A DNA stretch of 25,949 nucleotides from a virus. Every line of letters starts with the position of its first letter. Position 1 is the first letter of the stretch. A program made the position numbers and the translations under genes. The stretch is from positions 1 through 25,949 of the IMG/VR virus record IMGVR_UViG_3300023435_000084; one strand, written 5' to 3'. This document shows, piece by piece, positions 10,766 through 24,207 of this stretch. A model generated the notes under the pieces. It was not told the DNA's origin. It worked only from the letters and a program-made list of their open reading frames with translations, and did no database searches.

Positions 10766-10766
10766 A

Positions 10767-12360: not shown

Positions 12361-14328
12361 TTAAACTGTTGGTATTCCTTCTCCAGACTCAGCTAGAGCT
12401 GCTGGATTATCTGATGATTTACTTAATGCGTTTTGACCGGAACCACTTCCTCCACCCGCTTGTTCTAGTTGCGCTTGCTCTTGTTTTCTTTTCTCTTCGG
12501 CCGGATCAACTAACATTGATTCATTGTCATTGTTTGCCCTAATTAACATTCGGGCAGCTTCTCGTTGGTTAAATAAATCTGGTCTACTAGAATATCGATT
12601 AAATTTCATATCGGCTTTAGCTGCTCTAATTGCCGGTGTTTCTGGGATTAAGCTTTCAACACTTGCTTTCATATATAAATCAATCTCTGTCCAATAATCT
12701 TTTCGAATAACAACTGTACGTCTTGGCGCACCTTTTTTTCCAGCGGCTCGATCCTGTTTATAAATCTCATATTCTCGGTCCTCAATCTCTTTTTTCGAAA
12801 TTGTTTCTTTCTCCGAAAAAATGATTTGCATAGTACCAGCGGACCCGTCCGGTAAAGATTGATTAGGCACGGAAATTTTTCCAATTTCTTCGCGAGTCTT
12901 AAACTGGAACATTCTCATTATAATAGGGAATGATCGAGCGGATGTGAAGAACATTAATTGTAATGCAAATGAGTTTAATACCTTATTGGCGTTAGCATCT
13001 AAAATAACAACTTCTTTCGCAGTCTGTCTTCCTTGTTCACCTGAACCACCTGTTTGTGGCGGTGTAGTAGCTCTATCAATTTCAGCGTCAGAACTTTGAT
13101 CGAGTGCCACGTCTGAATTATCAATTCCTTTAGTAAGCCCTGGGATTGTCTGAACATCATCTTTATTCATTCCTGCTGGGGCCGGAGTAATCATTCCTGG
13201 AATAACAATATCTGAGTCAACGAATGTACCATTAAATGTGATTAGTGGTGGAATCGCTGACATCTTACCTTTCCATCGCAATAAAGTTTTCCAACCATCT
13301 TTCCATTTCTTATCTTCTTTTATTTTATTTGCCAATGAATTACCCCAATAATATTCTGGTCGCGCAAACATTTCGAAAATACCTTTATTGATTGGGTAAT
13401 TACCATCGTGATACGGCATTAAATTATCATGCGCGAACATTAATACTCCGTTACAAATAATATTGAAATATTTAGCTTTTTTTACATAACTAGGTAATCT
13501 ACCACTCTCTTTAAATTCTTTTAATTTATGCCTAGGTACAACACTCCAAATTCTAACAATTTGACATTTATTTTCAGTATCAATCATTTGGCTAAGCTCT
13601 TGAAATTTACCGTCATTAAGTCCAGTGAAAATTGTAGTCATCTGAGGGTAAACGTATTTTTGAAAATTCTCTAATCCACCAAGCTCGGCCTCGGCATCAT
13701 CATAGGTTAAATTATCTTGCACACGCATCAATCTTTGCTGCTTCTGAATATTCGGCTGATAAAAATTTGGAACTAATATTTCTTCATTTGGAACAATATT
13801 TGATTCTAACTTCCCATCTACAATATCGTCTTGCACATGGACTGTACCTTGAACAACTGTTTTCTGAACTGATCGAACATATTTTTGGTGACCACTCTCT
13901 GCCGGCCGTCCATCATTTTCATGTGCATATTCTAACATCGCGCGCGCCGCCGCAGAAAATATAATATCCTCTTCTTGATTACTATTCTGAGCTACGACTG
14001 TAGGATAGAATAAATTCAAGGCTAAGTTCGTCACAAAAATATTTGTTTTGTCACGGGAAATTCCAGAAGAATAAGGAACAATCGGATCATTGGGTGAGTT
14101 CGCTTCTGTTAAATTATTATAGTCATATTCACTATCTTCCCAAAATTTCTTTAATGTACGTCCACCAAGCATGTTTTGACCCTTCTCTTTTAGATTACGG
14201 TCGAATAAAAAATGCTGGTATGTCTTCATTATAAAATCAAAATCTTCCTTCGATGGAGCGTAGGGTTCTTTATTATTTGCTGTTTGCCTAATGGCATTTG
14301 TTAAATCTATATCTTGTTTTGTTGACAT
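12361..14328 (-). CDS. Portal protein
   Basis: 655 residues, the size range of portals. It begins 1 bp after the large terminase stop, the canonical portal position. The N-terminal half contains 'IFVTNLALNLFYP', 'QKTVVQGTVHVQDDIVDG' and 'PNEEILVPNFYQPNIQK', which resemble the portal wing region of podo- and siphophage-type portals. The C-terminal 60 residues are Gln/Ser/Gly-rich and disordered, typical of portal tails. The portal dodecamer forms the DNA entry vertex and docks the terminase. The assignment depends on context and size more than on a single diagnostic motif. Confidence 0.82.
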   Translation of the reverse strand: MSTKQDIDLTNAIRQTANNKEPYAPSKEDFDFIMKTYQHFLFDRNLKEKGQNMLGGRTLKKFWEDSEYDYNNLTEANSPNDPIVPYSSGISRDKTNIFVTNLALNLFYPTVVAQNSNQEEDIIFSAAARAMLEYAHENDGRPAESGHQKYVRSVQKTVVQGTVHVQDDIVDGKLESNIVPNEEILVPNFYQPNIQKQQRLMRVQDNLTYDDAEAELGGLENFQKYVYPQMTTIFTGLNDGKFQELSQMIDTENKCQIVRIWSVVPRHKLKEFKESGRLPSYVKKAKYFNIICNGVLMFAHDNLMPYHDGNYPINKGIFEMFARPEYYWGNSLANKIKEDKKWKDGWKTLLRWKGKMSAIPPLITFNGTFVDSDIVIPGMITPAPAGMNKDDVQTIPGLTKGIDNSDVALDQSSDAEIDRATTPPQTGGSGEQGRQTAKEVVILDANANKVLNSFALQLMFFTSARSFPIIMRMFQFKTREEIGKISVPNQSLPDGSAGTMQIIFSEKETISKKEIEDREYEIYKQDRAAGKKGAPRRTVVIRKDYWTEIDLYMKASVESLIPETPAIRAAKADMKFNRYSSRPDLFNQREAARMLIRANNDNESMLVDPAEEKRKQEQAQLEQAGGGSGSGQNALSKSSDNPAALAESGEGIPTV

Positions 14329-14329
14329 A

Positions 14330-15988
14330 TTATAGTTTTAAAATTCTAGCGCGAACACTTTCTCTTGATTTTTGTTTACGCTTATATTCATAAAATTCTC
14401 TATGTAAATCTGATTTATATTCATCTTTCCCTTGCCCGAATGGTCTAAAACCAATCTGAGCAATATAATGCAGTGCATCCGCTAAATCATCATGTTTTGC
14501 TTTTGGAAAATCATACAACTGTTTCTTTAGTTTAGCAGTATGATCGACAGGTTTATGTTTAAAATATATTTTTCCGTGCTGCAATCTACCCTGGAGGGCC
14601 CCACGAATCCGGTCTTCCTTATTAGTGCCTCCATGTTTCAACTCCACAACAACAGGAAATACTTGTTTTTCTTCACTACGTTGCCGTATATACGGCATAA
14701 CTTGATCCTCTAAGGATTTCTTCTCAATACCGATCTTCACTGGCTTATATGTTTCCCACACGTAGAAAACCCAATCAATTAATTCAGGAGCATTAAGTCG
14801 CGCTTCTCGAACAGATTGTAAATACCAGTTCCCCTCACTATCAATATCAGCAATTATTGTACCAGTATAATCCGGATCATTTTTAGCCCTAGCTTTAGAG
14901 TCAGCCACATCAATCGTAATATATCGATTCGTAGTACGTTTCAAAATTTCTGCCGGATCAAATTCTTTCTGTAACCACGCCAATTTAATTTCACGTTCAG
15001 CGTCAGTTAAAGGAGTATTAAGCATTTCCCGGTTATAAGTAGTATAACCAAGTAATCGCTGCTTCTTCTCTAAACTAACTTTCCGTTCTTTCGGATCGGC
15101 AATATCTTTATTAAATTCTAAAGCTTCCTTATCAGTATGAACGTATTTTGTCGGCCAGGTTATTCTTCCTTCATCATCAACTGCTTTTATGTCTCGAACT
15201 TTCCAGTCTACCTCATTTTTTGTTTTGTCTTCTAAATAAACAATCGAACCAGAAAAACTAATCCTATTGGCGAGTATTAAGAAATTACAATCAGGCGCGG
15301 ACCCGGACAACATTTCATCAATAAATGTAGTAACTTCCAGTGTCATAGCCTCCGAAACAACAGTTTTCGAATTTTCAATATCATCCATGATAATCATGTC
15401 AGGCCTATAGCTATCATAAACCTCACCACGAATATTCATACCAGTCGAATATGCAATAACTTTAATTTTATTCGACGTAATAAATTCTTTAACAGATTTT
15501 TTCTTGGAAAATCTATGATTCTCCTCATCTATATCCATGTCCTTCTCAAAAAACAATTGACCAAAATCATCAATAATCTTTTGATTCGTCTGTAAAGCAA
15601 ATGCTACATCGTATAAGTTCGAAGATGCTTTCCTCTGATCGTAACTAACCCAGATAATAAACTTCTTTCTTTCATAACAAATCATGTGAGCCAACCCAAT
15701 CTTACCTAGAGAGGTTTTAGCAGACTCACGATACATAATCCACATAGCCCCAACCAGGTTGTCAAAATTTAAGTCCTGGTACATGTCACTATGGAAATCT
15801 GGCATCTCGAACAAGTGATAATGTGAAAAGTAATATAATGAAAAGAGCGCAATATTTTTTCTACATGCGTAAACTCGTTTTTCTTTATCTTCTAATATCT
15901 CCTCAAATAACTTACGAAAGTCTTCTTTATTGTCGGGGAAAATTTTCTTTTCGTTTGAGGAATTTATCAATTCGTTGTTTTTCTGCAT
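14330..15988 (-). CDS. terL: Terminase large subunit (TerL)
   Basis: 552 residues with both expected domains. ATPase: a variant Walker A YRESAKTS at 86-93 (Lys91, Thr92) and Walker B DMIIMDD at 197-203, preceded by the usual RG...RPD. RNase H-like nuclease: Asp360 in ITIDVAD, Glu422 in IGIEKK and Asp500/501/504 in KHDDLADAL. The enzyme translocates and cuts DNA at the portal. The ATG start overlaps the upstream gene by 62 bp. TTG at codon 7 would give a smaller overlap, but no good ribosome site distinguishes them. Portal follows after 1 bp. Confidence 0.95.
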   Translation of the reverse strand: MQKNNELINSSNEKKIFPDNKEDFRKLFEEILEDKEKRVYACRKNIALFSLYYFSHYHLFEMPDFHSDMYQDLNFDNLVGAMWIMYRESAKTSLGKIGLAHMICYERKKFIIWVSYDQRKASSNLYDVAFALQTNQKIIDDFGQLFFEKDMDIDEENHRFSKKKSVKEFITSNKIKVIAYSTGMNIRGEVYDSYRPDMIIMDDIENSKTVVSEAMTLEVTTFIDEMLSGSAPDCNFLILANRISFSGSIVYLEDKTKNEVDWKVRDIKAVDDEGRITWPTKYVHTDKEALEFNKDIADPKERKVSLEKKQRLLGYTTYNREMLNTPLTDAEREIKLAWLQKEFDPAEILKRTTNRYITIDVADSKARAKNDPDYTGTIIADIDSEGNWYLQSVREARLNAPELIDWVFYVWETYKPVKIGIEKKSLEDQVMPYIRQRSEEKQVFPVVVELKHGGTNKEDRIRGALQGRLQHGKIYFKHKPVDHTAKLKKQLYDFPKAKHDDLADALHYIAQIGFRPFGQGKDEYKSDLHREFYEYKRKQKSRESVRARILKL

Positions 15989-16373
15989 TTGTTAGATTAT
16001 CACTTTTATTAGCTAATTGACCTACCCTACTCTCAAGTTTTTTTATTTTGTAAGACAGATCGTCCGTAACATTTGATAATCCGCTAATAATTTTGCTTAA
16101 TCCTACCGCTGTACTTGCACAAATTTTTTCTGGAGTCATGCACATCGTCGCAAAAAATTTTCTACGTTCCACTTCACCAAGTAAATCTCGTAGGTACTTC
16201 ACGTCTTCTACTGCACGAGAGAAATCAATTGGTCCAGTTGGTTCATATTTTACGATTTCGCCTCCAGTTTTTTTAAGATCGTCCGGCATTTTTGCTTGAA
16301 ACATGACTTCATTCATCATTACTCCAAAGAATTTTGTTTCTGTTATAGATTTTTTCTCTACCAATACTTCCAT
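15927..16373 (-). CDS. Putative small terminase subunit or late-operon leader protein
   Basis: 148 residues, first gene of the leftward operon, overlapping terL. It is helical, with a probable coiled coil at about 95-140 ('SNVTDDLSYKIKKLESRVGQLANKSDN'). No helix-turn-helix is obvious, so the small-terminase call rests on position. The start lacks a Shine-Dalgarno and follows an intrinsic terminator by 14 bp. This implies that expression of the whole operon depends on read-through or on how the leader folds. It could also be an unrelated head protein. Confidence 0.55.
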   Translation of the reverse strand: MEVLVEKKSITETKFFGVMMNEVMFQAKMPDDLKKTGGEIVKYEPTGPIDFSRAVEDVKYLRDLLGEVERRKFFATMCMTPEKICASTAVGLSKIISGLSNVTDDLSYKIKKLESRVGQLANKSDNLTNAEKQRIDKFLKRKENFPRQ

Positions 16374-16386
16374 AAAATTTTTCTAT

Positions 16387-16407
16387 AAAAAAAACGCCAA
16401 AAGGCGT
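16387..16407 (-). terminator. Intrinsic terminator in the late-operon leader
   Basis: On the minus strand a 5-bp GC-rich stem (ACGCC / GGCGT) with a TTTT loop runs straight into eight T residues. It ends 14 bp before the start codon at 16373. Its position after the leftward promoter and before the first gene is that of an attenuator. A weak 6-bp hairpin (16415-16429, TGTGGT / ACCACA) lies just upstream. Confidence 0.7.
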
Positions 16408-16458
16408 ATTAGAATGTGGTAACACCACAAACTAGATCAAAATTTTTAAACCATCTTT

Positions 16459-16541
16459 GTAAGAAATCAATAAGCATATACCTATATAAATTGATTATTT
16501 GTAAGTCGGCACGTTGGCGCCGACCTATGACCCTTTCTTAC
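16459..16541 (-). ncRNA. Branched structured RNA in the late-operon leader
   Basis: A closing 8-bp helix (16459-16466 with 16534-16541, GTAAGAAA / TTTCTTAC) encloses two hairpins: 16505-16510 with 16519-16524 (GTCGGC / GCCGAC), and 16467-16471 with 16490-16494, which has an inner ATAT/ATAT helix. The result is a three-way-junction fold about 50 nt upstream of the terminator at 16387. The pairs also form on the plus strand, but the location in the leftward leader favours minus. It matches no riboswitch class I recognise. Confidence 0.45.
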
Positions 16542-16583
16542 CTCCAAAAAGGAAAAAGATAAGTGGGCGCTTTTTTATTTTTG

Positions 16584-16613
16584 TGACAATATGTCAACAT
16601 TTACATTATAGCA
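16584..16613 (-). promoter_or_regulatory. Leftward extended -10 promoter with downstream operator-like dyad
   Basis: The minus strand carries TGCTATAAT (16613-16605), a consensus extended -10; the -35 region is poor. Eight bases downstream lies TGACA-TAT-TGTCA (16596-16584), a 5-bp inverted repeat at the expected start of transcription. This is the nearest strong leftward promoter to the packaging genes and would give a leader of about 225 nt. The dyad suggests repressor control. Confidence 0.6.
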
Positions 16614-16642
16614 TATATTTAAATTTTTGGAAAATTTTTTTA

Positions 16643-16651
16643 TGTGGATAA
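16643..16651 (-). promoter_or_regulatory. DnaA box
   Basis: TGTGGATAA on the plus strand, the exact reverse complement of the consensus TTATCCACA. It lies just upstream of the leftward promoter. Together with the box at 17011 it may bind host DnaA for replication or for promoter control. Confidence 0.6.
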
Positions 16652-16695
16652 CTTTTCCTGGAGTGAAATATTGGGTGGGGCTAGTTTTTAGGTAC

Positions 16696-16727
16696 AAAAA
16701 GGGGCCCTTAAATGAAATAAGGACCCC
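16696..16727 (-). terminator. Intrinsic terminator on the leftward strand
   Basis: On the minus strand GGGGtCCTT pairs with AAGGgCCCC (8 bp plus one mismatch) around a 9-nt loop, followed directly by five T residues. It would stop transcripts from the upstream leftward promoter at 16773-16781 after about 70 nt. It thereby isolates the late promoter at 16605. Confidence 0.65.
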
Positions 16728-16752
16728 GATTTGAAATGATAAATATATGACG

Positions 16753-16781
16753 GTTACAGAGGTAACGATTTTAGTATAGCA
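16753..16781 (-). promoter_or_regulatory. Second leftward extended -10 promoter with downstream dyad
   Basis: The minus strand carries TGCTATACT (16781-16773), an extended -10. Six bases later lies GTTAC-CTCT-GTAAC (16766-16753), a 5-bp inverted repeat. The layout copies the promoter at 16605-16613 with a different dyad sequence. A transcript would run into the terminator at 16696-16727, giving a short RNA with a hairpin at each end. Confidence 0.5.
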
Positions 16782-16872
16782 CGGATTAAGGGGGAGGGGA
16801 AGAGAGAGGCTTACTGAAATTATTAACCTGGCATAATACCCCACAGGTAACGGGTAGGGGTCACCCCGAACT

Positions 16873-16917
16873 TTGACATGTTTTTGAGTGTTAGCTAACA
16901 TTAGCCCACCATGTCAA
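16873..16917 (+). promoter_or_regulatory. Nested concentric dyad overlapping a rightward promoter
   Basis: Outer arms TTGACATG (16873-16880) and CATGTCAA (16910-16917) are perfect inverted repeats centred at 16895. Inside, TGTTAGCTAACA (16889-16900) is a perfect palindrome centred at 16894.5. The left arm supplies a consensus -35 TTGACA, and TAACAT at 16896-16901 is a 17-bp-spaced -10. The palindrome overlaps that -10, as a repressor operator would. The right arm offers TTGACA to the opposite strand. Confidence 0.6.
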
Positions 16918-16935
16918 TACGAACATAATACGAAC
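16916..16935 (+). repeat. Direct repeat AATACGAAC, two copies 11 bp apart
   Basis: AATACGAAC occurs at 16916-16924 and 16927-16935, one helical turn apart, immediately beside the nested dyad. This spacing suits tandem binding of a regulator or an iteron-type initiator, but two short copies could be chance. Confidence 0.4.
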
Positions 16936-17002
16936 TTACGTTTATTAATATACATTAATCCACCTATTGGGGTTTTTTAGCTAACCTTGGGCTATTTATG
17001 AG

Positions 17003-17030
17003 TTGTTACTTGTGGATAACTCACTATAAT
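17003..17030 (+). promoter_or_regulatory. Rightward promoter with a DnaA box in its spacer
   Basis: TTGTTA (17003-17008), 16-bp spacer, then consensus TATAAT (17025-17030). The spacer contains TGTGGATAA (17011-17019), a perfect DnaA box, so DnaA binding would occlude the promoter. A transcript would reach the hairpin at 17098-17120 after about 60-85 nt. Confidence 0.55.
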
Positions 17031-17097
17031 ATGGATTGATATATTATGTTGCTTATTGGGGGGCTATATAATAGCACAAAGCGAGGTATCTGTCAAA

Positions 17098-17120
17098 GTG
17101 GCCTGAGGTTGAGGCCACTA
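17098..17120 (+). terminator. Perfect 8-bp hairpin, possible rightward terminator
   Basis: AGTGGCCT (17098-17105) pairs perfectly with AGGCCACT (17113-17120) around a 7-nt loop, followed by AATTTT. The U-tract is modest, so termination is plausible but not certain. No convincing coding frame spans it. It could end a short RNA started at about 17037. Confidence 0.5.
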
Positions 17121-17248
17121 ATTTTGGTGGCTAAAAAAATATTTTTGACTAATAATGACTAAAGATTGTTAAGCACAAAGGGTTTGAAAAAAAAGCTCTA
17201 AATTGTTCGACCAACTGCCCTTTTATTTAATGTTGGCTAATTATGCTA

Positions 17249-17277
17249 TTGACTTTTGCTTGTTTTCGTTCTATAAT
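17249..17277 (+). promoter_or_regulatory. Strong rightward sigma70-like promoter
   Basis: TTGACT (5/6), 17-bp spacer, TATAAT (6/6). It points toward the early genes but lies 400 bp from the first one, so it would give a long leader that includes the TA tract and the 17410 dyad. Confidence 0.65.
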
Positions 17278-17339
17278 CTCCGTAATTTGTCAATTAAGCT
17301 ACAGTGTAAAAACCCTTATCCTTCTTTAATATTAGTTAA

Positions 17340-17359
17340 TATATATATATATATATATA
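17340..17359. repeat. (TA)10 tract
   Basis: Twenty bases of alternating T and A within a very AT-rich stretch, a candidate duplex-unwinding element between the DnaA boxes and the early genes. It could also be simple slippage sequence. Confidence 0.6.
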
Positions 17360-17409
17360 AAATAGTAACCTAAATATATTAAGACTTTTTATGCGACCCT
17401 GTGATTATG

Positions 17410-17421
17410 GCTAACATTAGC
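17410..17421. repeat. Second copy of dyad GCTAACATTAGC
   Basis: The same 12-mer (GCTAA-CA-TTAGC, an inverted repeat) occurs at 16894-16905, overlapping the nested dyad's -10. Two copies in one control region suggest operators for one regulator. A degenerate half site, GCTAACCTT, lies at 16980-16988. Confidence 0.45.
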
Positions 17422-17551
17422 ACAAGCTGAGCCTAAAAAAGCAATGTAAATTTTAAAAGTGTTTGGAATATCGTTCAGCCTCAAGCCTTAATTTGCTATA
17501 ACATTTAAATTATAATTAACTAACCCCTAAACAACTGCTAATATTGAACAC

Positions 17552-17580
17552 TTGACAAGATAATTTTCGTATGCTATAGT
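17552..17580 (+). promoter_or_regulatory. Main early promoter (consensus -35, extended -10)
   Basis: TTGACA (17552-17557), 17-bp spacer, TGCTATAGT with extended TGC and -10 TATAGT (5/6). It is the best rightward promoter in the window and lies 100 bp before the first early gene. A perfect 14-bp palindrome, TAACTTATAAGTTA (17657-17670), lies downstream in the leader and could be an operator. Confidence 0.7.
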
Positions 17581-17656
17581 TAAATAAGATAGGCCGAACG
17601 ACAAAAAGAGGTTAAGCCATTTCACAAAAAAACGGCACAACAAAAATACTATGTTA

Positions 17657-17670
17657 TAACTTATAAGTTA
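17657..17670. promoter_or_regulatory. Perfect 14-bp palindrome before the first early gene
   Basis: TAACTTATAAGTTA is self-complementary and ends 10 bp before the ATG at 17681. It is a candidate operator or translational hairpin. AT-rich palindromes arise easily by chance. Confidence 0.35.
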
Positions 17671-17680
17671 CAGTATAAAT

Positions 17681-17824
17681 ATGACCTATAATATTACATA
17701 TAAAATACCAAAATATAGACACGCTAGACAATCCTCCCAAACACTACGAAATTTATCCAAAAATGACCTCTCGGATTGGATTGCATGGATAAACTATAAA
17801 AGGGGAACTTACACCATATTTTAA
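17681..17824 (+). CDS. Small early protein, 47 residues
   Basis: ATG at 17681, TAA at 17822-17824. The product has a basic N-terminal half (IPKYRHARQSSQTLRN) and a Trp-rich helix, 'LSDWIAWINYKRG', at 30-42. The composition is protein-like and it is the first gene after the early promoter. A small protein of this shape could bind nucleic acid or a host target. No family recognised. It is below common length cut-offs, so automated annotation may miss it. Confidence 0.5.
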   Translation: MTYNITYKIPKYRHARQSSQTLRNLSKNDLSDWIAWINYKRGTYTIF

Positions 17825-17849
17825 CTCCATTTCAGGAGATTTAAAACCG

Positions 17850-17887
17850 GCGGGCAGAAGTGGGGTATAAACTCCCCACTCACCCGC
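17850..17887 (+). repeat. Intergenic hairpin R1
   Basis: GCGGG (17850-17854) pairs with CCCGC (17883-17887), and AGTGGGG (17859-17865) with CCCCACT (17874-17880), around an 8-nt loop. It sits between two small early genes, 26 bp before the next ATG, and shares its GCGGGCAG head and CCCGCATATA tail with the hairpin at 18079. The inner stems differ, yet each is fully paired. Confidence 0.65.
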
Positions 17888-17912
17888 ATATAATAAAATA
17901 ACATTTAATCAA

Positions 17913-18071
17913 ATGACAAAAAGTTATCAAATCAAAACTTATTTAATTGACTGCGTGGGTTATTCAGATGAGGATTTAAAAGGAGCTAATACAGACGAAT
18001 TAGTCGAATTAGTCGAAAATGAAAAGGAATGCGCTGAATATTTAGAGGTGCCAATGTCTTATTTAAAATAA
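17913..18071 (+). CDS. Small acidic early protein, 52 residues
   Basis: ATG at 17913 preceded by the shared leader TTTAATCAA. Acidic protein with 'GYSDEDLKGANTDELVELVE' at 16-35 and a C-terminal 'AEYLEVPMSYLK'. No cysteine cluster or membrane segment. It lies between hairpins R1 and R2. Function unknown; small acidic early phage proteins often bind host enzymes, but nothing here shows a target. Confidence 0.5.
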   Translation: MTKSYQIKTYLIDCVGYSDEDLKGANTDELVELVENEKECAEYLEVPMSYLK

Positions 18072-18078
18072 ATAAATG

Positions 18079-18119
18079 GCGGGCAGTGAATAGATAACGA
18101 CTTACTTATTCACTCCCGC
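18079..18119 (+). repeat. Intergenic hairpin R2
   Basis: GCGGG (18079-18083) pairs with CCCGC (18115-18119). After a single bulged C, AGTGAATA (18085-18092) pairs perfectly with TATTCACT (18107-18114), loop 14 nt. The next ATG follows 11 bp later. Same outer stem and 3' flank as R1 with a different inner stem, so structure is kept while sequence changes. Confidence 0.65.
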
Positions 18120-18130
18120 ATATATATATT

Positions 18131-18247
18131 ATGAGTACAATTCAAAAACAAAACCAAATCAAATCATTTTACAAATTAAATAAACTAACTGCCCTGATAC
18201 TGCTATTACTAGCCGGCGCGGTGGTGGTAATAAATTTATGGAGTTAA
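18131..18247 (+). CDS. Single-span membrane microprotein, 38 residues
   Basis: Basic N-terminus (residues 1-18, KQNQIKSFYKLNK) then a hydrophobic segment LTALILLLLAGAVVVINLW at 19-37 long enough to span the membrane. The TAA overlaps the next gene's start by 10 bp, suggesting coupling. The topology would be cytoplasmic N-terminus by the positive-inside rule. It could be an early membrane modifier or superinfection-exclusion peptide. No family recognised. Confidence 0.5.
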   Translation: MSTIQKQNQIKSFYKLNKLTALILLLLAGAVVVINLWS

Positions 18248-18417
18248 CAAAAGAACAACACGCTAACAATGTAAAAAGTTTAATGTTAAACAAGACAGAC
18301 GCGGTATATAATGCAATTTTAAGAGGTGATGACCCGCGCGACTGTAAAGAATTTCAACTTTATTTAAAGAAAACAAACGATTATTTGAATAAACATCAAT
18401 TAATCAAAACCGATTAA
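18238..18417 (+). CDS. Small early protein, 59 residues
   Basis: ATG at 18238, within the end of the membrane microprotein gene. Helical protein with 'MLNKTDAVYNAILRGDDPRD' and a C-terminal 'LYLKKTNDYLNKHQ'. Its stop codon lies at the base of hairpin R3. No motif or family recognised. Coding is supported by composition, the overlap-coupled start and its fit between neighbouring genes. Confidence 0.5.
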   Translation: MELTKEQHANNVKSLMLNKTDAVYNAILRGDDPRDCKEFQLYLKKTNDYLNKHQLIKTD

Positions 18418-18469
18418 ACCCTAACACGGAGCAGTCCCAGACAATAAGCGACTGCTCAAGTTAGAGTTT
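18416..18469 (+). repeat. Intergenic hairpin R3
   Basis: Outer helix 18416-18425 with 18460-18469 (9 of 10 pairs, one C-A mismatch), internal loop, then GAGCAGTC (18429-18436) paired with GACTGCTC (18450-18457), loop 13 nt. It begins in the upstream stop codon. The next gene starts 65 bp later; that stretch contains a weak TCAC-ATAA-GTGA hairpin and nothing else clear. Confidence 0.6.
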
Positions 18470-18534
18470 AACTAATAATGCGAGCGTCGGCAGTACTCAC
18501 ATAAGTGAACAAACACCAGACCGCAAACAATTAA

Positions 18535-18933
18535 ATGACAAAAGAAAAAAAGTATTTTATCGCTGATTTTTACACATCACCCGAGGAAATACAACAAAGA
18601 AAAGACCAAATTGATAGACAAATGGCAAGCGTGCTAAAAACAATCAAACAAGGCAAAATTTATGCCACAGTTACAAGTGTTAGCCGTTCGGGTATGTCAA
18701 GGCGAATTCTATTTTTTAGAGTTACCAAGGGCAGCATAGAACGAATAACACCCCAAATCGCGTGGTTATACGGAGCAGTTACACCTGGGAAATATAACCA
18801 AGGCGGAAAAGAACTAATTGAAGATGGTTTACAAGTTAGCGGTTGTGGTATGGATATGATTTTTCATACTCTATACAATTGTATGCCGAACAAGCAAGCA
18901 AGCAAATGGCGTCAAAATTATAAAACCTTATAA
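18535..18933 (+). CDS. Conserved phage early protein of unknown function
   Basis: 132 residues. The combination VSRSGMSRRI (about 49-58) and GCGMDMIFHTLYN (about 103-115) is the signature of a small protein widespread in phages and usually annotated as hypothetical, with the pattern 'vSrSGMsR...GcGMDMgFhlvy'. No enzymatic assignment is known to me. The N-terminal 45 residues are basic and helical. It is the largest of the early small genes and starts without a Shine-Dalgarno, after AACAATTAA. Confidence 0.75.
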   Translation: MTKEKKYFIADFYTSPEEIQQRKDQIDRQMASVLKTIKQGKIYATVTSVSRSGMSRRILFFRVTKGSIERITPQIAWLYGAVTPGKYNQGGKELIEDGLQVSGCGMDMIFHTLYNCMPNKQASKWRQNYKTL

Positions 18934-18948
18934 ATTAAATTTAAGTAT

Positions 18949-19131
18949 ATGTTATTAGAAATTTTATTTACGGAGTTAAGACACGACAAAAACCTAAAAT
19001 CTTTTTTAGGGGATATTGTTAAAAAAGTAAATGCAACAATAGAAATTAGGAACGAAGAGGATAAAATTGTCATAACAGGTGGCAGTAAAGATATAAAAGA
19101 CACCCTAACAATATTTTACCGTAACATCTAA
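18949..19131 (+). CDS. Small early protein, 60 residues
   Basis: Starts 15 bp after the preceding gene and ends just before hairpin R4. The sequence alternates helix and strand ('LFTELRHDKNLKSFLGDIVKK' then 'NATIEIRNEEDKIVITGG'), suggesting a compact alpha/beta fold. No motif recognised. An opposite-strand frame over the same bases is a weaker candidate. Function unknown. Confidence 0.5.
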   Translation: MLLEILFTELRHDKNLKSFLGDIVKKVNATIEIRNEEDKIVITGGSKDIKDTLTIFYRNI

Positions 19132-19190
19132 ATTAACCCCTCACCCCGTGGCTATCACATAAAACTGGTAGCCACTAGCGAGTAGTTAAT
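19132..19190 (+). repeat. Intergenic hairpin R4
   Basis: Outer ATTAAC (19132-19137) pairs with GTTAAT (19185-19190), with an extra CTC/GAG step inside. The core GTGGCTA (19148-19154) pairs perfectly with TAGCCAC (19169-19175), loop 14 nt. It is followed by TAATAAATTAAATATAATCAAATG, which matches the 3' flank of R5 and starts the next gene. Confidence 0.65.
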
Positions 19191-19207
19191 AAATTAAATA
19201 TAATCAA

Positions 19208-19363
19208 ATGGCAAATGACATTGACTTATGGCGCGATATTGAAGATGTAGAGAAACTTATAAGGTGGTCTATAAGAGATAAGGATAAAATACTAGAGAAA
19301 CTTTATAGAAAAGAGCATAAAAAATTAATGAGTAATTTTCAAGCTGTTTACATTAATAGTTAA
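19208..19363 (+). CDS. Small early protein, 51 residues
   Basis: ATG at 19208 in the shared leader ATAATCAAATG. Charged helical protein ('WRDIEDVEKLIRWSIRDKDK' then 'ILEKLYRKEHKKLM'). Its stop codon TAA (19361-19363) forms the first arm of hairpin R5. No family recognised. The conserved leader and position between two R elements support a real gene. Confidence 0.5.
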   Translation: MANDIDLWRDIEDVEKLIRWSIRDKDKILEKLYRKEHKKLMSNFQAVYINS

Positions 19364-19430
19364 CCCCTAACCCTCAACCACAAAGGCGACAAGCCATTTC
19401 TGCCCTTGTGGTTCTGGGCTAGTGATTAAT
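19360..19430 (+). repeat. Intergenic hairpin R5 with conserved loop
   Basis: AACCACAAAGG (19376-19386) pairs with CCTTGTGGTT (19404-19413) with one bulged A. Outside it, CCC (19371-19373) pairs with GGG (19416-19418), CTA with TAG, and TTAA (19360-19363) with TTAA (19426-19429). The 17-nt loop contains ACAAGCCATTTCT, which is identical in R6 although the stems differ. The next gene's leader follows directly. Confidence 0.72.
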
Positions 19431-19447
19431 AAATTAAACATAATCAA

Positions 19448-19642
19448 ATGACTAATAAAACAGCTTTATGTGTTGCTTGCCTTGATGAATTTGAGCAAGA
19501 CAGGGATTTGCAATTATGTGATAATTGCATAACTAAATATGATACCGACAAAATATGGAAAGACCACGACGAAAACAAAATTGATATTCTTGATGTTAAC
19601 GAGAATATTCAATTATTAAATGAGTATATGTTAAATAACTAA
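19448..19642 (+). CDS. Small zinc-ribbon protein, 64 residues
   Basis: Starts MTNKTALCVACLDEF. Two CxxC pairs (Cys8/Cys11 and Cys24/Cys27) separated by 12 residues form a probable zinc ribbon or treble-clef knuckle. The C-terminal half is acidic helix. The ATG sits in the shared ATAATCAAATG leader after R5. Such small zinc proteins often bind nucleic acid or host polymerase. The zinc site is read from the sequence; the role is inference. Confidence 0.6.
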   Translation: MTNKTALCVACLDEFEQDRDLQLCDNCITKYDTDKIWKDHDENKIDILDVNENIQLLNEYMLNN

Positions 19643-19652
19643 ACATAATCAA

Positions 19653-19829
19653 ATGACTAAACAATCAATCAAAAAAAGACTTGCCTATTTAAGACAAGAG
19701 ATTGAAGCCGAACGTATAAGCCAAGGCGAAATCCTTGAATTACAAGGCTTAGCCGAACACATAGACGCGGGCGACACTCTGCTTTTAGAGTGGGCTTTAG
19801 TCCCTGAGTTTAACGGATACTTAGATTAA
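19653..19829 (+). CDS. Conserved small phage protein, 58 residues
   Basis: ATG at 19653 in the shared ATAATCAAATG leader, 10 bp after the preceding stop. The sequence 'RISQGEILELQGLAEHIDAG' followed by DTLLLEWALVPEF matches a short protein type found in many phages, typically 'ISygEl.eLq.La..I..gD..LlEwAgvpE', without assigned function. The strong family pattern makes coding secure although it is short. Confidence 0.7.
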   Translation: MTKQSIKKRLAYLRQEIEAERISQGEILELQGLAEHIDAGDTLLLEWALVPEFNGYLD

Positions 19830-19852
19830 TTTAATAAATTAAACATAAAACT

Positions 19853-20431
19853 ATGTCATCGACAAATCGTGGCTATGACCGCCATAAATCAGACTACTAC
19901 ATCACGCCCTTACAACCAATCAAGGAGTTTTTATCTGTATTTTTATTGGATGAAAATATAACGAGGCCAGACCGTTTAATTTGGCTTGACCCTTGCTCTG
20001 GTGGTGATAAAAATAATCCAATGAGTTACCCGACTGTTATTAAGGAAGAATTCGACCCGTTAATAATGACAATCGATATTCGGGAAGATAGTTTAGCTGA
20101 GTTAAAGGCTGATTATTTGCTAGAAGAAATCAAAGCGCCTAAGCCGGATATAATTATAACTAATCCGCCTTTTCATCTAGCTAAGGAAATTATAACTAAG
20201 GCGCTGGATGATGTTGGCAATGGTAGATATGTGATTATGCTTTTACGGCTTAATTTTTGGGGAAGTAAAGACCGCAATCAGTGGTTAAAGGATAATATGC
20301 CAAAGTATTGTTATATTCATGGCTTTCCTAGGATGTCTTTCACTAAAGACGGTGGCACTGACTCAATCGAGTATGCCCATTTTGTTTGGCAAAAGGGAAC
20401 CAATAAAAATACAAAAATAATATTACTTTAA
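19853..20431 (+). CDS. DNA adenine methyltransferase-like protein
   Basis: 192 residues. WLDPCSGG at 44-51 fits motif I (SAM-binding, D-P-x-x-G), an acidic strand TIDIRED at 73-79 fits the ribose-binding region, and NPPF at 104-107 is the catalytic motif IV of amino-methyltransferases. 'IMLLRLNFWGSKDRNQWL' and 'EYAHFVWQ' are typical of short phage methyltransferase-like proteins. Motif I is slightly degenerate and no target-recognition domain is present. It may methylate adenine to evade restriction. It is the last gene before hairpin R6. Confidence 0.75.
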   Translation: MSSTNRGYDRHKSDYYITPLQPIKEFLSVFLLDENITRPDRLIWLDPCSGGDKNNPMSYPTVIKEEFDPLIMTIDIREDSLAELKADYLLEEIKAPKPDIIITNPPFHLAKEIITKALDDVGNGRYVIMLLRLNFWGSKDRNQWLKDNMPKYCYIHGFPRMSFTKDGGTDSIEYAHFVWQKGTNKNTKIILL

Positions 20432-20498
20432 CCCTTAACCCTCACCTAAGACGGCTAACAAGCCATTTCTACCGTCTTAGAGATGGGCTAGTGATTAA
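20428..20498 (+). repeat. Intergenic hairpin R6 with the same loop as R5
   Basis: CTAAGACGG (20446-20454) pairs perfectly with CCGTCTTAG (20472-20480). The 17-nt loop contains ACAAGCCATTTCT, identical to R5. Outer CCC/GGG (20439-20441 with 20485-20487) and TTAA/TTAA (20428-20431 with 20495-20498) are also as in R5, as is the 3' flank GGGCTAGTGATTAATAAATT. The variable stem and constant loop suggest selection on RNA shape. Confidence 0.72.
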
Positions 20499-20523
20499 TA
20501 AATTGCCCGCACATTTAAAATTT

Positions 20524-20739
20524 ATGGATAAATTATTTATTATTGAATATTGCGATCAAGGCACTTCCTGGTATTGGGCAAAAAATAAAGAGGAAGCTAA
20601 AAAGCAAGCCTTAGAAACAGATGAAGCCACAGAATATGCCTTAGAAGAAGCAGAAATCTGGTGCATAGATGAAGCCATAAACAAACAAGAACTAAAAGAA
20701 CGCCTTGACAGGTACATTAATAAACCATTAAATAAATAA
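20524..20739 (+). CDS. Small acidic early protein, 71 residues
   Basis: The ATG at 20524 is preferred. A GTG at 20491 is in frame but lies inside the conserved 3' flank of R6, which is non-coding in the other copies. The protein begins MDKLFIIEYCDQGTSWYWA and continues as an acidic helix (AKNKEEAKKQALETDEA). The pattern of a short beta start, Trp-rich turn and helix resembles small phage proteins of unknown role. A large terminator follows. Confidence 0.6.
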   Translation: MDKLFIIEYCDQGTSWYWAKNKEEAKKQALETDEATEYALEEAEIWCIDEAINKQELKERLDRYINKPLNK

Positions 20740-20761
20740 TAACAACACTCTTTTATTACTC

Positions 20762-20838
20762 CCACGCGTAAGCGTGGCACTACTAAAACACTGTTAACTT
20801 TACTTTAAGCGGGCAAGTAAAGCAGACAGTGTTTTTTT
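20762..20838 (+). terminator. Large two-part terminator after the early small genes
   Basis: First hairpin: CCACGC (20762-20767), GTAA tetraloop of GNRA type, GCGTGG (20772-20777). Second hairpin: AAAACACTG (20785-20793) pairs with CAGTGTTTT (20827-20835), and inside it CTTTACTT (20798-20805) with AAGTAAAG (20815-20822). The run of T continues to 20838. This is the strongest terminator in the window and closes the early unit before the transglycosylase gene. Confidence 0.85.
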
Positions 20839-20895
20839 ATTAAAAAATAACTCATTGAAATAAAAACAAAAATAAAAAATTAACAATTAAACAAA

Positions 20896-21474
20896 ATGAA
20901 AAAACTTACAAAAATGCTATTTTCAAGCATTATCAAACAAAGTAAAAACGATTTGCCGTTTACAGCAAGAGAAGGGCAAATGGTTAAATGGTTTATAAAA
21001 TTCCAAATCCTTACACTGGTTATTATATCAGCATGGATTTATCCATTAATCACGCTAAATAGCCACATAACAAGCTACAATCAATTAATTAAGGAGAATG
21101 TAAGCTTGCGGACTAAAAACAGCGTGGCGACCACCAAGAGAAGGATTTTAACACCAGAAATTCCGGGAATACAGGTAAAAAGCGTCAAAAAAACTCCTGA
21201 TCAAGTAAAAGATGAAATTCAGTTAATTGCGGAGGAACATAACTTTCCCTGGATAGATTATCTTTTGCGGTTAGCCGGGTGTGAAAGTGAATTTAATTCA
21301 GAGGTGAGAGGTAAAATAGATAAAAGAGATAGAGGTGTTTTTCAGATTAATTCTTATTGGCATAGTGAAGTGTCAGACGAATGCGCGTTTAACGTCCGGT
21401 GTGCGACAGAGTGGACTATGTGGAGAATTGAGAGCGGACACCAAAACGAATGGATTTGTGACAAATTAATTTAA
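20896..21474 (+). CDS. Membrane-anchored lytic transglycosylase (SLT-like), probable cell-wall lysis or entry enzyme
   Basis: 192 residues. A basic N-terminus and a single hydrophobic segment (about 37-55) anchor it in the inner membrane. The lysozyme-like domain runs from about 105 to 192, with catalytic Glu130 in GCESEFN, then DRGVFQIN (145-152), the usual second SLT motif, and a final 'TEWTMWRIESGHQNEW'. It should cleave murein glycan strands. It lies in its own unit between a terminator and the replication genes, not beside the late genes, so a role other than timed lysis is possible. No holin is adjacent. Confidence 0.83.
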   Translation: MKKLTKMLFSSIIKQSKNDLPFTAREGQMVKWFIKFQILTLVIISAWIYPLITLNSHITSYNQLIKENVSLRTKNSVATTKRRILTPEIPGIQVKSVKKTPDQVKDEIQLIAEEHNFPWIDYLLRLAGCESEFNSEVRGKIDKRDRGVFQINSYWHSEVSDECAFNVRCATEWTMWRIESGHQNEWICDKLI

Positions 21475-21487
21475 TAATAATAAAACC

Positions 21488-21751
21488 ATGCTTATCAAAA
21501 CAGAATTAACCCGGGCCGCGATAGATCACATCTTATTATGGGCCACAGGTTATCGAAACAAATTTAGATGGACAAAACATGACACTAATTTAACAAACGT
21601 GCTTCACTTAATAAAGAAGCAAGTTGGTCGCAGGGCTTACAATAAGCAAAAAATTAAAGAGTTAATAGGTGATGATGTATCAAAAGAAAAACTACAGGAA
21701 ATAATAAAAATAGTAGATGAGGCACCAATAACATTGCGATTAAAGAAATAG
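21488..21751 (+). CDS. Hypothetical basic protein, 87 residues
   Basis: Starts 13 bp after the transglycosylase stop. Helical, Lys-rich, with 'ELTRAAIDHILLWATGYRNK' and a C-terminal DEAPITLRLKK. No motif or family recognised. It closes the unit before the 330-bp region upstream of the helicase. A nucleic-acid-binding role is possible from its charge only. Confidence 0.55.
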   Translation: MLIKTELTRAAIDHILLWATGYRNKFRWTKHDTNLTNVLHLIKKQVGRRAYNKQKIKELIGDDVSKEKLQEIIKIVDEAPITLRLKK

Positions 21752-21771
21752 TTATTAAGGTTCCTCACAGC

Positions 21772-21780
21772 TTATCCACA
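21772..21780 (+). promoter_or_regulatory. DnaA box upstream of the helicase gene
   Basis: TTATCCACA, exact consensus, 21 bp after the preceding stop. It lies near a 14-bp tandem repeat and a 20-bp inverted repeat, which together suggest an origin in the 21.75-22.08 kb gap. Confidence 0.6.
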
Positions 21781-21810
21781 TTAAAAAATCAAGATCTTTA
21801 CAAAAAAAAC

Positions 21811-21838
21811 TAAACTATAATTTGTAAACTGTAGTTTG
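21811..21838 (+). repeat. 14-bp tandem repeat, two copies
   Basis: TAAACTATAATTTG (21811-21824) is followed directly by TAAACTGTAGTTTG (21825-21838), 12 of 14 identical. It also contains an AAACTA...TAGTTT dyad. It could be an iteron pair or an operator. The -10-like TATAAT inside the first copy has no good -35. Confidence 0.5.
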
Positions 21839-21864
21839 TTAAATGTTAGCACTTTTTTATAGTA

Positions 21865-21893
21865 TTGCATTTTTAAAAGCTGTAAGCTATACT
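21865..21893 (+). promoter_or_regulatory. Rightward promoter for the replication unit
   Basis: TTGCAT (21865-21870), 17-bp spacer, TATACT (21888-21893). The -35 matches in only three positions; the -10 matches in five of six. It would transcribe the inverted repeat and the helicase gene. Confidence 0.45.
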
Positions 21894-21944
21894 TTAATTA
21901 AGTTAATCCTCTATATGTTTGTCAACAGAGTTTAATAACTCACC

Positions 21945-22061
21945 CCTATTAAAAAACCGGATAATATCAGTTAGACATTCATGCCTTTATATTACTAAGC
22001 CTTATATAAAAGCACGACAAACTATGGATTTCAGCTGATTTTTATCCGGTTTTTTAATAGG
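21945..22061. repeat. Perfect 20-bp inverted repeat with structured loop
   Basis: Arm 21945-21964 (CCTATTAAAAAACCGGATAA) is the exact reverse complement of arm 22042-22061. A further ATCAG/CTGAT pair (21966-21970 with 22035-22039) extends it inward. The 77-nt interior folds again: TTTATAT (21986-21992) with ATATAAA (22004-22010), flanked by TGC/GCA. The right arm ends 20 bp before the helicase ATG. It is a candidate origin cruciform, nicking or initiation structure, or a leader that controls helicase expression. Confidence 0.8.
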
Positions 22062-22081
22062 AGTGCGCTAATTAATATTTT

Positions 22082-23650
22082 ATGCTAACGAATGCACTCG
22101 TCCAAGGGGCGACTAAAAATAGTATTTTAATTGCTAATTATATGATAGAGCAAGCCACAATTGACGGTAAACACTTCGCCTATAGCGAGAAAGAAAAAAT
22201 GCTTTACTGTTATGATGGTAAGATTTATATACCATTCGAAGGGATCGATCTTGATCAGTTTTTCCACGATTTTATGGTTCAATACAACGCCACCGAAATG
22301 TGGAAATCGTCAAGACTTGCAGAATTTGAGCGAGCAATTAAAGTAAATAAATTAGTCCCTCGAGTAGAGATGGACGATTACAATGATCAGATTTGTTTTA
22401 AGAACGGAGTGCTAGACATGAAGACAATGGAATTTAAAAATCATAGTAGTTCACTATATTTCTCAACATTTGTAGATGTAGATTACGACCCGAAAGTAGG
22501 TTCCGAACCAGTAGCATTTTTAACCACAATGGAAAAAATCTTTTTCAATACTAAAACCGGAAAACCAGACTATGACACAATCGATCTTATAAAATGTATA
22601 GGTGGCTCCCTCATCTTTCCTAAAAATAAATTAAAACAATTGTTTATTTTCTTAGGTGGTGGTTCGAATGGTAAATCTGTAATAATGAATACATTTGCGA
22701 TGTTTTTTTCAACCGACCACACCACTTATTTATCTCTCGAGGAGCTGTCAACTAAAAACAAAGAAAGGTCACGGTTGCTAAAGTCTCGTATCAATTTTTG
22801 TTCAGAGGAAAAAGGTGGAACTATTAATTCAGAAGAAATCAAACGGATTGTTTATGGCGAGGGTATAACAATTGGACGGATGTATAAAGAGGCGGTTGAA
22901 TTTATCCCTAAGACTAAAATTGTTGTGGCCGCTAATTCAAAACCATATTTTAAAGATACTAGTTATGGATTAGAGCGACGACTTACAATCGTAAACTTCG
23001 ACAATTTATTTCTGCAAACTGCTAAGTTTAAAAAAACTAAAGACGCGGAGAAGCAAGGTATATTTTTAGCAGAAGATGATGATGATTTAATGGCTAAAAT
23101 AAGAAAAGAACGTACACAAATTTTAAACTTTTTCCTAAAAGGATTGAAAATATTAGTAGATCGTAAATGGGAAATGCCTGAAAGTGTTGCTGTTAAAGAG
23201 GCTAAAGAAGAATATATTGAGGGTAATGACACAGTTGGAACTTGGTTGAAAGATAATTATGAAGTTGATGTTAGTGGAGAATCAAAGATATTAGCCTCTG
23301 ATATTCTAGTAAACTACAGGACTTGGTACCAGGATAATGTAAGCACTCGATCATTAAACTTTGCAGTTAATACAATGGGTACAAGAATTAATGAAATTTT
23401 CAGATTAAAGCCAATCCGTAAAGCAGTAAATGGTAAGAGATTGGCGCATTATACATTAATGAAAAAAATATATGTTACTGACGACGATACAACAGAAGAG
23501 CCAGGAGATGGAAGTGAGCTACCGGTGGGCGATCTTGTGCAGGGCTCGTTATCTATACCAGAAAATCAAGGAGAGCCTACCACCAAGAGAAGTGAATCGG
23601 GAGAAGGAAATCAAGAGGTTGAGGAGAATAGCCAAGAAAGAACTCAGTAA
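22082..23650 (+). CDS. SF3 helicase, D5/P4 primase-helicase C-terminal type
   Basis: 522 residues. Walker A GGGSNGKS (192-199, Lys198), Walker B-like INFCSEE (237-243) and motif C IVVAANS (280-286) define the SF3/AAA+ helicase core, with a probable arginine finger at 299-300 in LERRL. Residues about 80-190 correspond to the D5_N helper domain. No primase domain is present, but a CHC2-like gene overlaps the 3' end. It should unwind DNA at the phage origin. The C-terminal 50 residues are disordered Glu/Gly/Ser/Pro-rich, in the region that overlaps the next frame. A perfect inverted repeat lies just upstream. Confidence 0.9.
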   Translation: MLTNALVQGATKNSILIANYMIEQATIDGKHFAYSEKEKMLYCYDGKIYIPFEGIDLDQFFHDFMVQYNATEMWKSSRLAEFERAIKVNKLVPRVEMDDYNDQICFKNGVLDMKTMEFKNHSSSLYFSTFVDVDYDPKVGSEPVAFLTTMEKIFFNTKTGKPDYDTIDLIKCIGGSLIFPKNKLKQLFIFLGGGSNGKSVIMNTFAMFFSTDHTTYLSLEELSTKNKERSRLLKSRINFCSEEKGGTINSEEIKRIVYGEGITIGRMYKEAVEFIPKTKIVVAANSKPYFKDTSYGLERRLTIVNFDNLFLQTAKFKKTKDAEKQGIFLAEDDDDLMAKIRKERTQILNFFLKGLKILVDRKWEMPESVAVKEAKEEYIEGNDTVGTWLKDNYEVDVSGESKILASDILVNYRTWYQDNVSTRSLNFAVNTMGTRINEIFRLKPIRKAVNGKRLAHYTLMKKIYVTDDDTTEEPGDGSELPVGDLVQGSLSIPENQGEPTTKRSESGEGNQEVEENSQERTQ

Positions 23651-24086
23651 GTGGCAACATTTACGCCTAGAAGCTGATACAAAAGACCTGTGGTTTATAG
23701 ATGATCAAACATTGATATGGTTGGAAAGGTTTAATAAATGTGAGAAGACACTAGCTTATTATAGACGGCTTAAAAAAGCTGATAAAGACGAAAAAGAGGG
23801 TAAAGTAGTTACCAGACCGGTTGAATATGATATTGAGAGGCTGAAAGAGACACCAATTGTAGATATAGTTAAGCATTATGGCTTCAACGTTAAAATGTCC
23901 GGTGTCGGGCGTGGGTACATTAAATTAAGGCAAGAGAAAACCGCCTCATGTTGCTTAACAGTTGATAAAAATACATTTCACGACTTTGGATCCGGTGAAC
24001 ACGGCGACGTAATCGATTTCGTAGCCAAACAAGAAAACTGTGGATTTCAAGAGGCATGTAAAAGATTAACATTAATGGGATATTGA
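23592..24086 (+). CDS. CHC2-like primase zinc-finger domain protein without zinc ligands
   Basis: The frame opens at ATG 23472, but a start there would overlap the helicase by 179 bp. GTG 23592 (164 residues, 59-bp overlap) is preferred, and TTG 23619 is possible. The C-terminal 65 residues match the CHC2 fold of DnaG-type primases: 'QEKTASCCLTVDKNTFHDFG' then HGDVIDFVAK and FQEACKRL. The usual zinc ligands (CPFH and CFGC) are replaced, by KLRQ and DFGS, so zinc binding is probably lost. It likely works with the adjacent helicase in priming. The first 70 residues are a basic helix with no match. Confidence 0.68.
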   Translation: MNREKEIKRLRRIAKKELSKWQHLRLEADTKDLWFIDDQTLIWLERFNKCEKTLAYYRRLKKADKDEKEGKVVTRPVEYDIERLKETPIVDIVKHYGFNVKMSGVGRGYIKLRQEKTASCCLTVDKNTFHDFGSGEHGDVIDFVAKQENCGFQEACKRLTLMGY

Positions 24087-24087
24087 T

Positions 24088-24207
24088 ATGACTAAAGAAA
24101 AAGGTGTAATTCTGATAATATTTATAGTTTGTATATACTTTGGATTAAAATACGACAGTCATTTAGCAACTATTGGAGCATTAATATCGTTATTATTATT
24201 AATATAA
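24088..24207 (+). CDS. Small membrane protein, 39 residues
   Basis: ATG one base after the preceding TGA. Two hydrophobic stretches (about 7-20, GVILIIFIVCIYFGL, and 28-39, IGALISLLLLI) separated by a short polar loop KYDSH suggest a two-span hairpin. The size and shape would fit a small holin or an accessory membrane protein, but the neighbours are replication genes. Function unknown. Confidence 0.5.
   Translation: MTKEKGVILIIFIVCIYFGLKYDSHLATIGALISLLLLI

Follow-up and report, generated by a model that had tools for sequence, protein, structure and literature searches.

Hairpins lie between consecutive small genes in a stretch of viral DNA, the 25,949-base record IMGVR_UViG_3300023435_000084 (here, the window), and raise the question of whether they mark the early genes only, on which strand they act, and what they do. 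A segment of the 48,104-base IMG/VR contig IMGVR_UViG_3300025669_000055 is identical to bases 9853 to 25949 of the window, and at the level of sequence we took the two records as one virus, P1. The initial annotation had described six hairpins, R1 to R6, in a block of small genes at 17.7 to 20.8 kb on the plus strand (the early block). Here, we report that these hairpins are real and that the set is wider than first described, extending to late operons of P1 and to two relatives; the role of the hairpins is putative.

Junction hairpins in P1 and two relatives

All six hairpins of the early block were recovered where they had been placed, and each exceeds chance, with z-scores from −3.0 to −5.3 that were computed on the sense strand for the gap from stop to start codon using 200 dinucleotide shuffles (Table 1). 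At least two groups can be told apart by sequence: R1 and R2, which have the GCGGG/CCCGC stem in common as annotated, and R4 to R6, which have a TTAA outer stem. R3 follows the same plan as the other early hairpins with different bases, pairing TAAAC.CTAAC with GTTAG.GTTTA in its outer stem and GAGCAGTC with GACTGCTC in its inner stem. When R6 is folded by itself, its outer TTAA stem forms; in the optimal fold of the complete gap, this stem is absent and the inner nine pairs stay. Several hairpins had been described as starting in the upstream stop codon; R3 (with stop codon 18415 to 18417 in its 5′ arm), R4, R5, and R6 begin within the stop codon or immediately behind it, while R2 and R1 begin 10 and 28 nucleotides (nt) after its first base, respectively, the stop upstream of R1 being that of a doubtful 47-residue open reading frame (ORF). 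Hairpins separate small genes at R1 to R6, while four other small-gene junctions have none: at 18238/18247, the genes overlap, and the gaps at 18933/18949 (15 nt), 19642/19653 (10 nt), and 19829/19853 (23 nt) are unfolded. As a separate observation, GCGGGC is present at 17850 to 17855 (R1), 18079 to 18084 (R2), and 20809 to 20814 (the loop of the likely terminator after the block), and its complement GCCCGC is present at 20505 to 20510 directly after R6, so that these copies could pair over a long range.

Table 1. Hairpins and related features of the window
Feature	Coordinates	Strand	z-score	Remarks
R1 hairpin, GCGGG/CCCGC outer stem	17850–17887	+	−4.7	13 pairs; ATG 17913 is 25 nt downstream
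R2 hairpin, GCGGG/CCCGC outer stem	18079–18119	+	−4.9	ATG 18131 is 11 nt downstream
R3 hairpin	18415–18470	+	−5.1	19 pairs; ATG 18535 is 64 nt downstream
R4 hairpin, outer ATTAA/TTAAT, inner GTGGCTA/TAGCCAC	19132–19190	+	−5.3	20 pairs
R5 hairpin, stop codon 19361–19363 in outer stem	19359–19430	+	−4.2	24 pairs
R6 hairpin, stop codon 20429–20431 in outer stem	20428–20498	+	−3.0	
R7 hairpin, begins in stop TAG, TAGGGGAG..CTCCCCTA	25573–25598	+	−2.8	ATG 25613 is 14 nt downstream
Late-operon junction hairpin, core GCTCATCA..TGGTGGGC	8515–8567	−	−7.8 (gap)	21–22 pairs
Late-operon junction hairpin, stop codon in stem	11596–11654	−	−2.7 (gap)	
AAGCCATTTC, 10-mer common to R5/R6 loops, in early leader	17614–17623	+		Exact match
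Sigma-70-like promoter TTGACA-17-TATAGT, upstream of early operon	17552–17580	+		11/12 consensus positions
Likely intrinsic terminator closing early block, AAAACACTG..CAGTGTTTTTTT	20785–20838	+		T-tract present, unlike R1–R6

Contrary to their first presentation as a feature of small early genes, the hairpins are not specific to these genes. We surveyed same-strand gaps of 25 to 160 nt between stop and start codon, scoring z < −2 as a hairpin, in P1 and in two relatives: P2 (IMGVR_UViG_3300035698_004472), whose primase-helicase aligns with that of P1 at 35% over 417 residues (E = 4e-82), and P3 (IMGVR_UViG_3300035698_005219), which is more distant than P2 by the same alignment. Genes were called mechanically as ORFs of at least 40 codons starting with ATG, the longest being kept first. 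Hairpins were found in 10 of 13 gaps of 45 to 160 nt in P1, 8 of 11 in P2, and 7 of 11 in P3, one of these 25 positive junctions being the gap that holds the terminator. This total of 25/35 compares with 25/360 for random 80-nt windows of coding sequence (10/120, 5/120, and 10/120 in P1, P2, and P3, respectively; Fisher test, P = 5e-18). None of the five gaps of 25 to 44 nt scored positive; however, R7, which lies in a 37-nt gap, was missed there by the gene calling, as was R2, and both were added later. At a single setting with gaps of 45 to 135 nt, the window (6/6) and P2 (5/8) together had hairpins at 11 of 14 junctions versus 51 of 196 at other phage loci (P = 1e-4), a control in which 3 of the 51 belong to P3 and some loci resemble near-duplicates.

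The anatomy of the hairpins was analyzed for the 25 survey positives and R7. The majority (18/26) start at most 10 nt from the first base of the stop codon, and 19 end 10 to 35 nt before the ATG (median, 25 nt). Only one of the 26 has at least five T in the eight bases after the stem. Shine-Dalgarno 4-mers are scarce in the three phages: among the genes called, 4/60 in P1, 3/48 in P2, and 6/62 in P3 have one upstream.

Among the late-operon hairpins, the core GCTCATCA..TGGTGGGC is present in both P1 and P3, where it follows different genes, and the pair adjoining this core shows a compensatory change from C-G to A-T. The hairpin at 11596 to 11654 is followed by a second one with a CCCC/GGGG stem before ATG 11519. 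In P2, the flanks AACAAAGGG..CCCACTAAA enclose two different stems, and P3 has two near-identical hairpins. We also note three neighboring observations. Just right of the window, at P1 27828 to 27981 in IMGVR_UViG_3300025669_000055, a junction has two very strong hairpins (minimum free energy of −68.2 sense and −44.6 antisense; z = −8.7), the second of which includes a GCGGG/CCCGC run as in R1 and R2. In P2 (L065, 3568 to 4416), the gene directly downstream of a junction hairpin encodes a protein resembling RNA ligase (phrog_548; E = 7.5e-30). Finally, phage locus L118 has several near-perfect intergenic hairpins in a row at 2677 to 3485 (TTGACACTTATGTGTCAATATT and similar), apparently a repeated palindrome.

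Sequence families and homologous junctions

As annotated, R5 and R6 have common flanks and an identical 13-nt loop core, ACAAGCCATTTCT (19389 to 19401 and 20458 to 20470). GGGCTAGTGATTAATAAATT is present in exactly two copies, whereas with up to three mismatches allowed, two matches were seen in 0 of 100 shuffles; likewise, the 10-mer AAGCCATTTC is present only at 17614, 19391, and 20460, and none of 100 shuffles had three copies. The stems, which had been called unrelated, in fact align without gaps, column by column: among 22 pairs, 15 are unchanged, 3 are changed on both sides, 1 is changed on one side, and 3 are lost in R6. Based on this alignment, R5 and R6 look like paralogues, and their compensatory changes are suggestive only as a sign of selection on structure. 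A covariance model of R5 and R6 recovered R4 (E = 0.0054), which by this criterion belongs to the same family. Over 11 loci, the same model did not find R3 and gave nothing better than E = 4.5 outside this virus. Together with an exact scan of IMG/VR, in which the R5/R6 flank was found only in this virus, this led us to reject a widespread element. AAGCCATTTC is not present in P2 or P3, and the complement of the R5/R6 loop is not present in the virus contig. The suggestion that the loop is a binding site for a phage protein would accordingly be confined to R5 and R6.

Of the early-block genes, only one has a counterpart by homology in P2 or P3 (E ≤ 1e-4), and neither P1 nor P2 has a hairpin adjacent to it; the junctions of R1 to R6 are shared by neither relative. 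Elsewhere, a hairpin lies 3′ of a homologous gene in both P1 (8567 to 9295) and P3 (32737 to 33405) and 5′ of a homologous gene in both P1 (27982 to 28185) and P2 (14150 to 14401), and in both cases the hairpin sequences differ as judged by eye. We rejected an element bound to particular genes: hairpin presence differs at most homologous genes, and homologues of the methyltransferase gene upstream of R6 lack R6 in other phages.

A putative role in the message and its alternatives

We propose that the hairpins punctuate cistron junctions in polycistronic phage mRNA, insulating cistrons and shielding transcript ends, a reading that we regard as about evenly balanced between right and wrong. Where same-strand genes lie 45 to 160 nt apart, a hairpin would usually be set against the upstream stop codon, an A/U-rich leader with a median of 25 nt would connect it to the next ATG, and the hairpin would function by its structure and not by its sequence. 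It would keep the ribosome that terminates on the upstream gene apart from the following start codon and stop the leader, which lacks a Shine-Dalgarno sequence, from pairing with the upstream gene. If the message were cut in the leader, then the upstream gene would keep a 3′ hairpin; perhaps processing also occurs in or beside the hairpin. Insulation is plausible in general because ORFs within one message are reported to be structurally isolated from one another in Escherichia coli (PMC5318159). The likeness lies in the isolation of neighboring ORFs; there, it is a property of the whole ORF, whereas P1 to P3 have a discrete hairpin in the gap (PMC5318159). The earlier suggestion of translation couplers fits badly, because three short early gaps are unfolded and the hairpins belong to longer gaps, with none in the five surveyed gaps of 25 to 44 nt.

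If the mRNA folds, then tolerated single changes should leave G·U rather than A·C. Using a strand-neutral alignment of the arms and counting wobbles flanked by pairs, we found 22 G·U and 10 A·C interior wobbles outside the early block (P = 0.05), or 22 and 5 with the terminator junction excluded. The z-scores outside the early block favor the gene strand in 17 of 17 hairpins, a figure that we think is inflated by A-rich leaders; because of this bias, the strand call rests on the wobble counts, which are small. In the early block, raw energies favored the antisense strand for 8 hairpins out of 9; however, such energies are biased there by the high A and C content of the gene strand, and the difference disappeared against shuffles, so that we did not adopt a minus-strand reading. 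Thus, the proposed selection on RNA structure is borne out in part: the R5/R6 changes and the recurrence of the layout in P2 and P3 favor structure over sequence, and RNA action of the late and middle hairpins is fairly supported by their wobbles, while for R1 to R6 RNA action is unproven. For the early block, RNA action is what we infer, as are the insulating and end-protecting roles generally.

Several observations weigh against this proposal. First, with R2 and R7 included, 10 of 37 junctions are hairpin-free. Second, the hairpin trait is strong in P1 to P3 and not in five more distant phages reached via a lysozyme-like gene, in which 8 of 33 junctions, one of them with a tRNA-like gene, scored positive, no more than in other phages. 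Third, hairpins are one-sided for at least five other homologous gene pairs. Fourth, the initial annotation had named the lack of hairpins at the same junctions in homologous phages as evidence that would count against it, and downstream of the methyltransferase gene preceding R6, none of 21 distinct 95-nt 3′ flanks from other phages had z < −2, with −2.6 for this virus in the same test (49 loci, one of which is this virus). Fifth, 51 of 500 shuffles reached the three two-sided changes of R5/R6, and 25 of 500 reached their percentage of paired cells. Sixth, wobbles in the early block amount to 5 G·U and 11 A·C (R1 to R6, 1 and 8; P3, 4 and 3; Fisher P = 0.03), those of R1 to R6, among which R4 to R6 are paralogous, leaning to the opposite strand. 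A looser count gave 37:19 versus 12:34 in an early group that included two P2 hairpins and in which several arms ran into flanks. Last, early-block z-scores have no gene-strand preference (5/9). Because the wobbles of R1 to R6 do not lean toward mRNA, these hairpins may have a role at the DNA level or via the opposite strand.

The nearest rival to insulation is processing in or beside the hairpin. In the early operon of phage T7, RNase III sites are bulged intergenic hairpins in which some 20 pairs are interrupted by an internal loop. In P1, a double-strand-specific RNase of the host could similarly cut the composite stem and free single-gene messages, which we consider unlikely but the most credible of the alternatives. 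Several hairpins resemble the T7 sites in size, bulged form, and intergenic position within an operon, having 19 to 24 pairs with internal loops (R3, R4, R5, P1 8515 to 8567, P2 14083 with 21, and P3 32737 with 22). Others have only 5 to 17 pairs, including P1 44209 (5), P2 9651 (8), P2 10497 (8), and R1 (13), and the set differs from that of T7 in including short hairpins and late genes. No RNase III family match was found in the P1 to P3 contigs, so that the enzyme would be the host's.

Alternatively, the hairpins may be elements of the DNA itself, recognized by a protein in double-stranded or extruded form; they could be operators, promoters, or inverted repeats tied to start codons, of which the ESAS of cluster K mycobacteriophages are an example. 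They are near-palindromes, mostly 10 to 35 nt before start codons, and compared with shuffles, the two strands of the early block fold to a similar degree; moreover, the ESAS provide a phage precedent for inverted repeats upstream of some start codons (PMC3203893). However, stem sequences vary between most sites, as would not be expected of an operator, the set includes late genes on the other strand, and wobbles outside the early block are biased to the gene strand; we give this alternative a rather low probability. The ESAS of cluster K mycobacteriophages are imperfect inverted repeats before some start codons in the nonstructural half of the genome, with a 17-bp repeat consensus per genome, mostly with a 13-bp SAS beside the start, and with an unproven function (PMC3203893, PMC12699233). 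They are the nearest described phage feature that we found, and the likeness is that of inverted repeats before a subset of starts in one phage lineage. ESAS arms have a consensus and are mostly accompanied by a SAS beside the start codon, whereas the arms in P1 differ between R1/R2, R3, R4, and R5/R6, and the hairpins are set against the stop codon. The 13-bp SAS, GGGATAGGAGCCC, had no match in the window at up to two mismatches.

It is improbable that the hairpins grade expression from gene to gene in the operon by pausing transcription or weakly terminating it. Such a role would suit stable hairpins that follow stop codons, and a likely true terminator follows the early block at 20785 to 20838; however, with T-tracts wanting in all but 1 of the 26 hairpins, intrinsic terminators are disfavored. 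We consider it equally improbable that the early-block hairpins act via the opposite strand, in the form of antisense RNA or of single-stranded DNA that has folded. In this view, they would be junction modules that are recognized by structure, lack exact integron R boxes, and let the phage exchange its small early genes as cassettes, and the late hairpins would have their role in the mRNA.

A still fainter prospect is that each small gene with its hairpin is an integron-like attC cassette (CALIN) recombined via the folded bottom strand. An integron integrase in cis is not required for CALIN. The gene-then-hairpin layout in one orientation, the small genes and DNA methyltransferase within the array, the length of R3 to R6 (56 to 72 nt), and top-strand A·C in R1 and R3 to R6 would all fit. 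Against this stand the boxes: no exact RYYYAAC..GTTRRRY pair at 40 to 110 nt was found in the 25 junctions examined, and with one mismatch per box, pairs appeared in R3 to R6 and at two P2 junctions, of which only those of R3 (CCCTAAC/GTTAGAG) have mutually pairing arms. In addition, the tyrosine recombinase family PF00589 had no match in the three contigs, which are possibly incomplete (all 14 control genomes were positive), and hairpins are present in late operons too. CALINs with methyltransferase genes have been reported in virulent phages (PMC9892861), and the likeness includes a hairpin per small gene, one orientation, a methyltransferase, and pairing that is kept while the sequence varies (PMC9892861, PMC2727003); P1 differs in having loose, mutually pairing R boxes in R3 only, no integrase match, and late-operon hairpins.

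As for other known kinds, the window had no Rfam match at the gathering score, the best weak match being to miR-430 on the minus strand, overlapping R3 (28 bits versus a gathering score of 47.3). N4-type hairpin promoters are used by a phage-encoded single-subunit RNA polymerase; the corresponding family PF00940 matched none of the three contigs and none of the control genomes either. The literature matches listed contain no description of junction hairpins of this kind, which does not prove their absence in print. The closest known kinds are ESAS and T7-type RNase III sites, with membership shown for neither.

Genomic setting and implications

The minus strand of P1 encodes the terminase and tail-fibre-like genes, while the plus strand has, besides the early block, replication genes for a D5/DUF5906 primase-helicase, a protein with a DnaG-type zinc finger, and an RNase T-like exonuclease. 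The promoter-like site upstream of the early operon is only suggestive, since sigma-70-like sites had no clear excess over shuffles in a promoter scan, and the likely terminator after the block was missed by a simple terminator scan. Using first-ATG calls, the primase-helicase and zinc-finger genes share about 180 bases, read in different frames (window 23472 to 23650); the true start of the second gene is probably later. The gene starting at 25613, downstream of R7, contains imperfect 15-nt repeats (ATTAACGCTTGGAAC and variants) at 25728 to 25864 that look pentapeptide-type; at its end, this gene has homology to two proteins of P3.

At E ≤ 1e-4, P1 shares eight proteins with P2, and nine matches from eight P1 proteins were found with P3. 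The shared proteins include the primase-helicase, a protein weakly matching exonuclease VIII, the lysozyme-like protein (Pfam SLT_3, slightly below cut-off), and a 734-residue late protein without an NCBIfam family. Among isolated phages, the terminase has only about 25% identity to the matches listed, and no match was found for a 655-residue protein (12361 to 14328), the 734-residue late protein, or the lysozyme-like protein. Two scans of bacterial and archaeal genomes, in which the peptide patterns used were short, gave no host or prophage relative. Of the five more distant phages, two share two or three further proteins with P1 to P3, and three share no other (E ≤ 1e-4 in the available stretches); one of these distant relatives (L165) has a cloverleaf-like sequence resembling a tRNA gene between two genes at 15645 to 15725.

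If the proposed punctuation of cistron junctions is correct, then a phage lineage with few Shine-Dalgarno sites and no close isolate found would mark its longer gene junctions by structure alone. The junctions would then provide a natural set of more than 20 sequence-variable insulators with which hairpin control of translation, of message ends, and of gene exchange could be tested.

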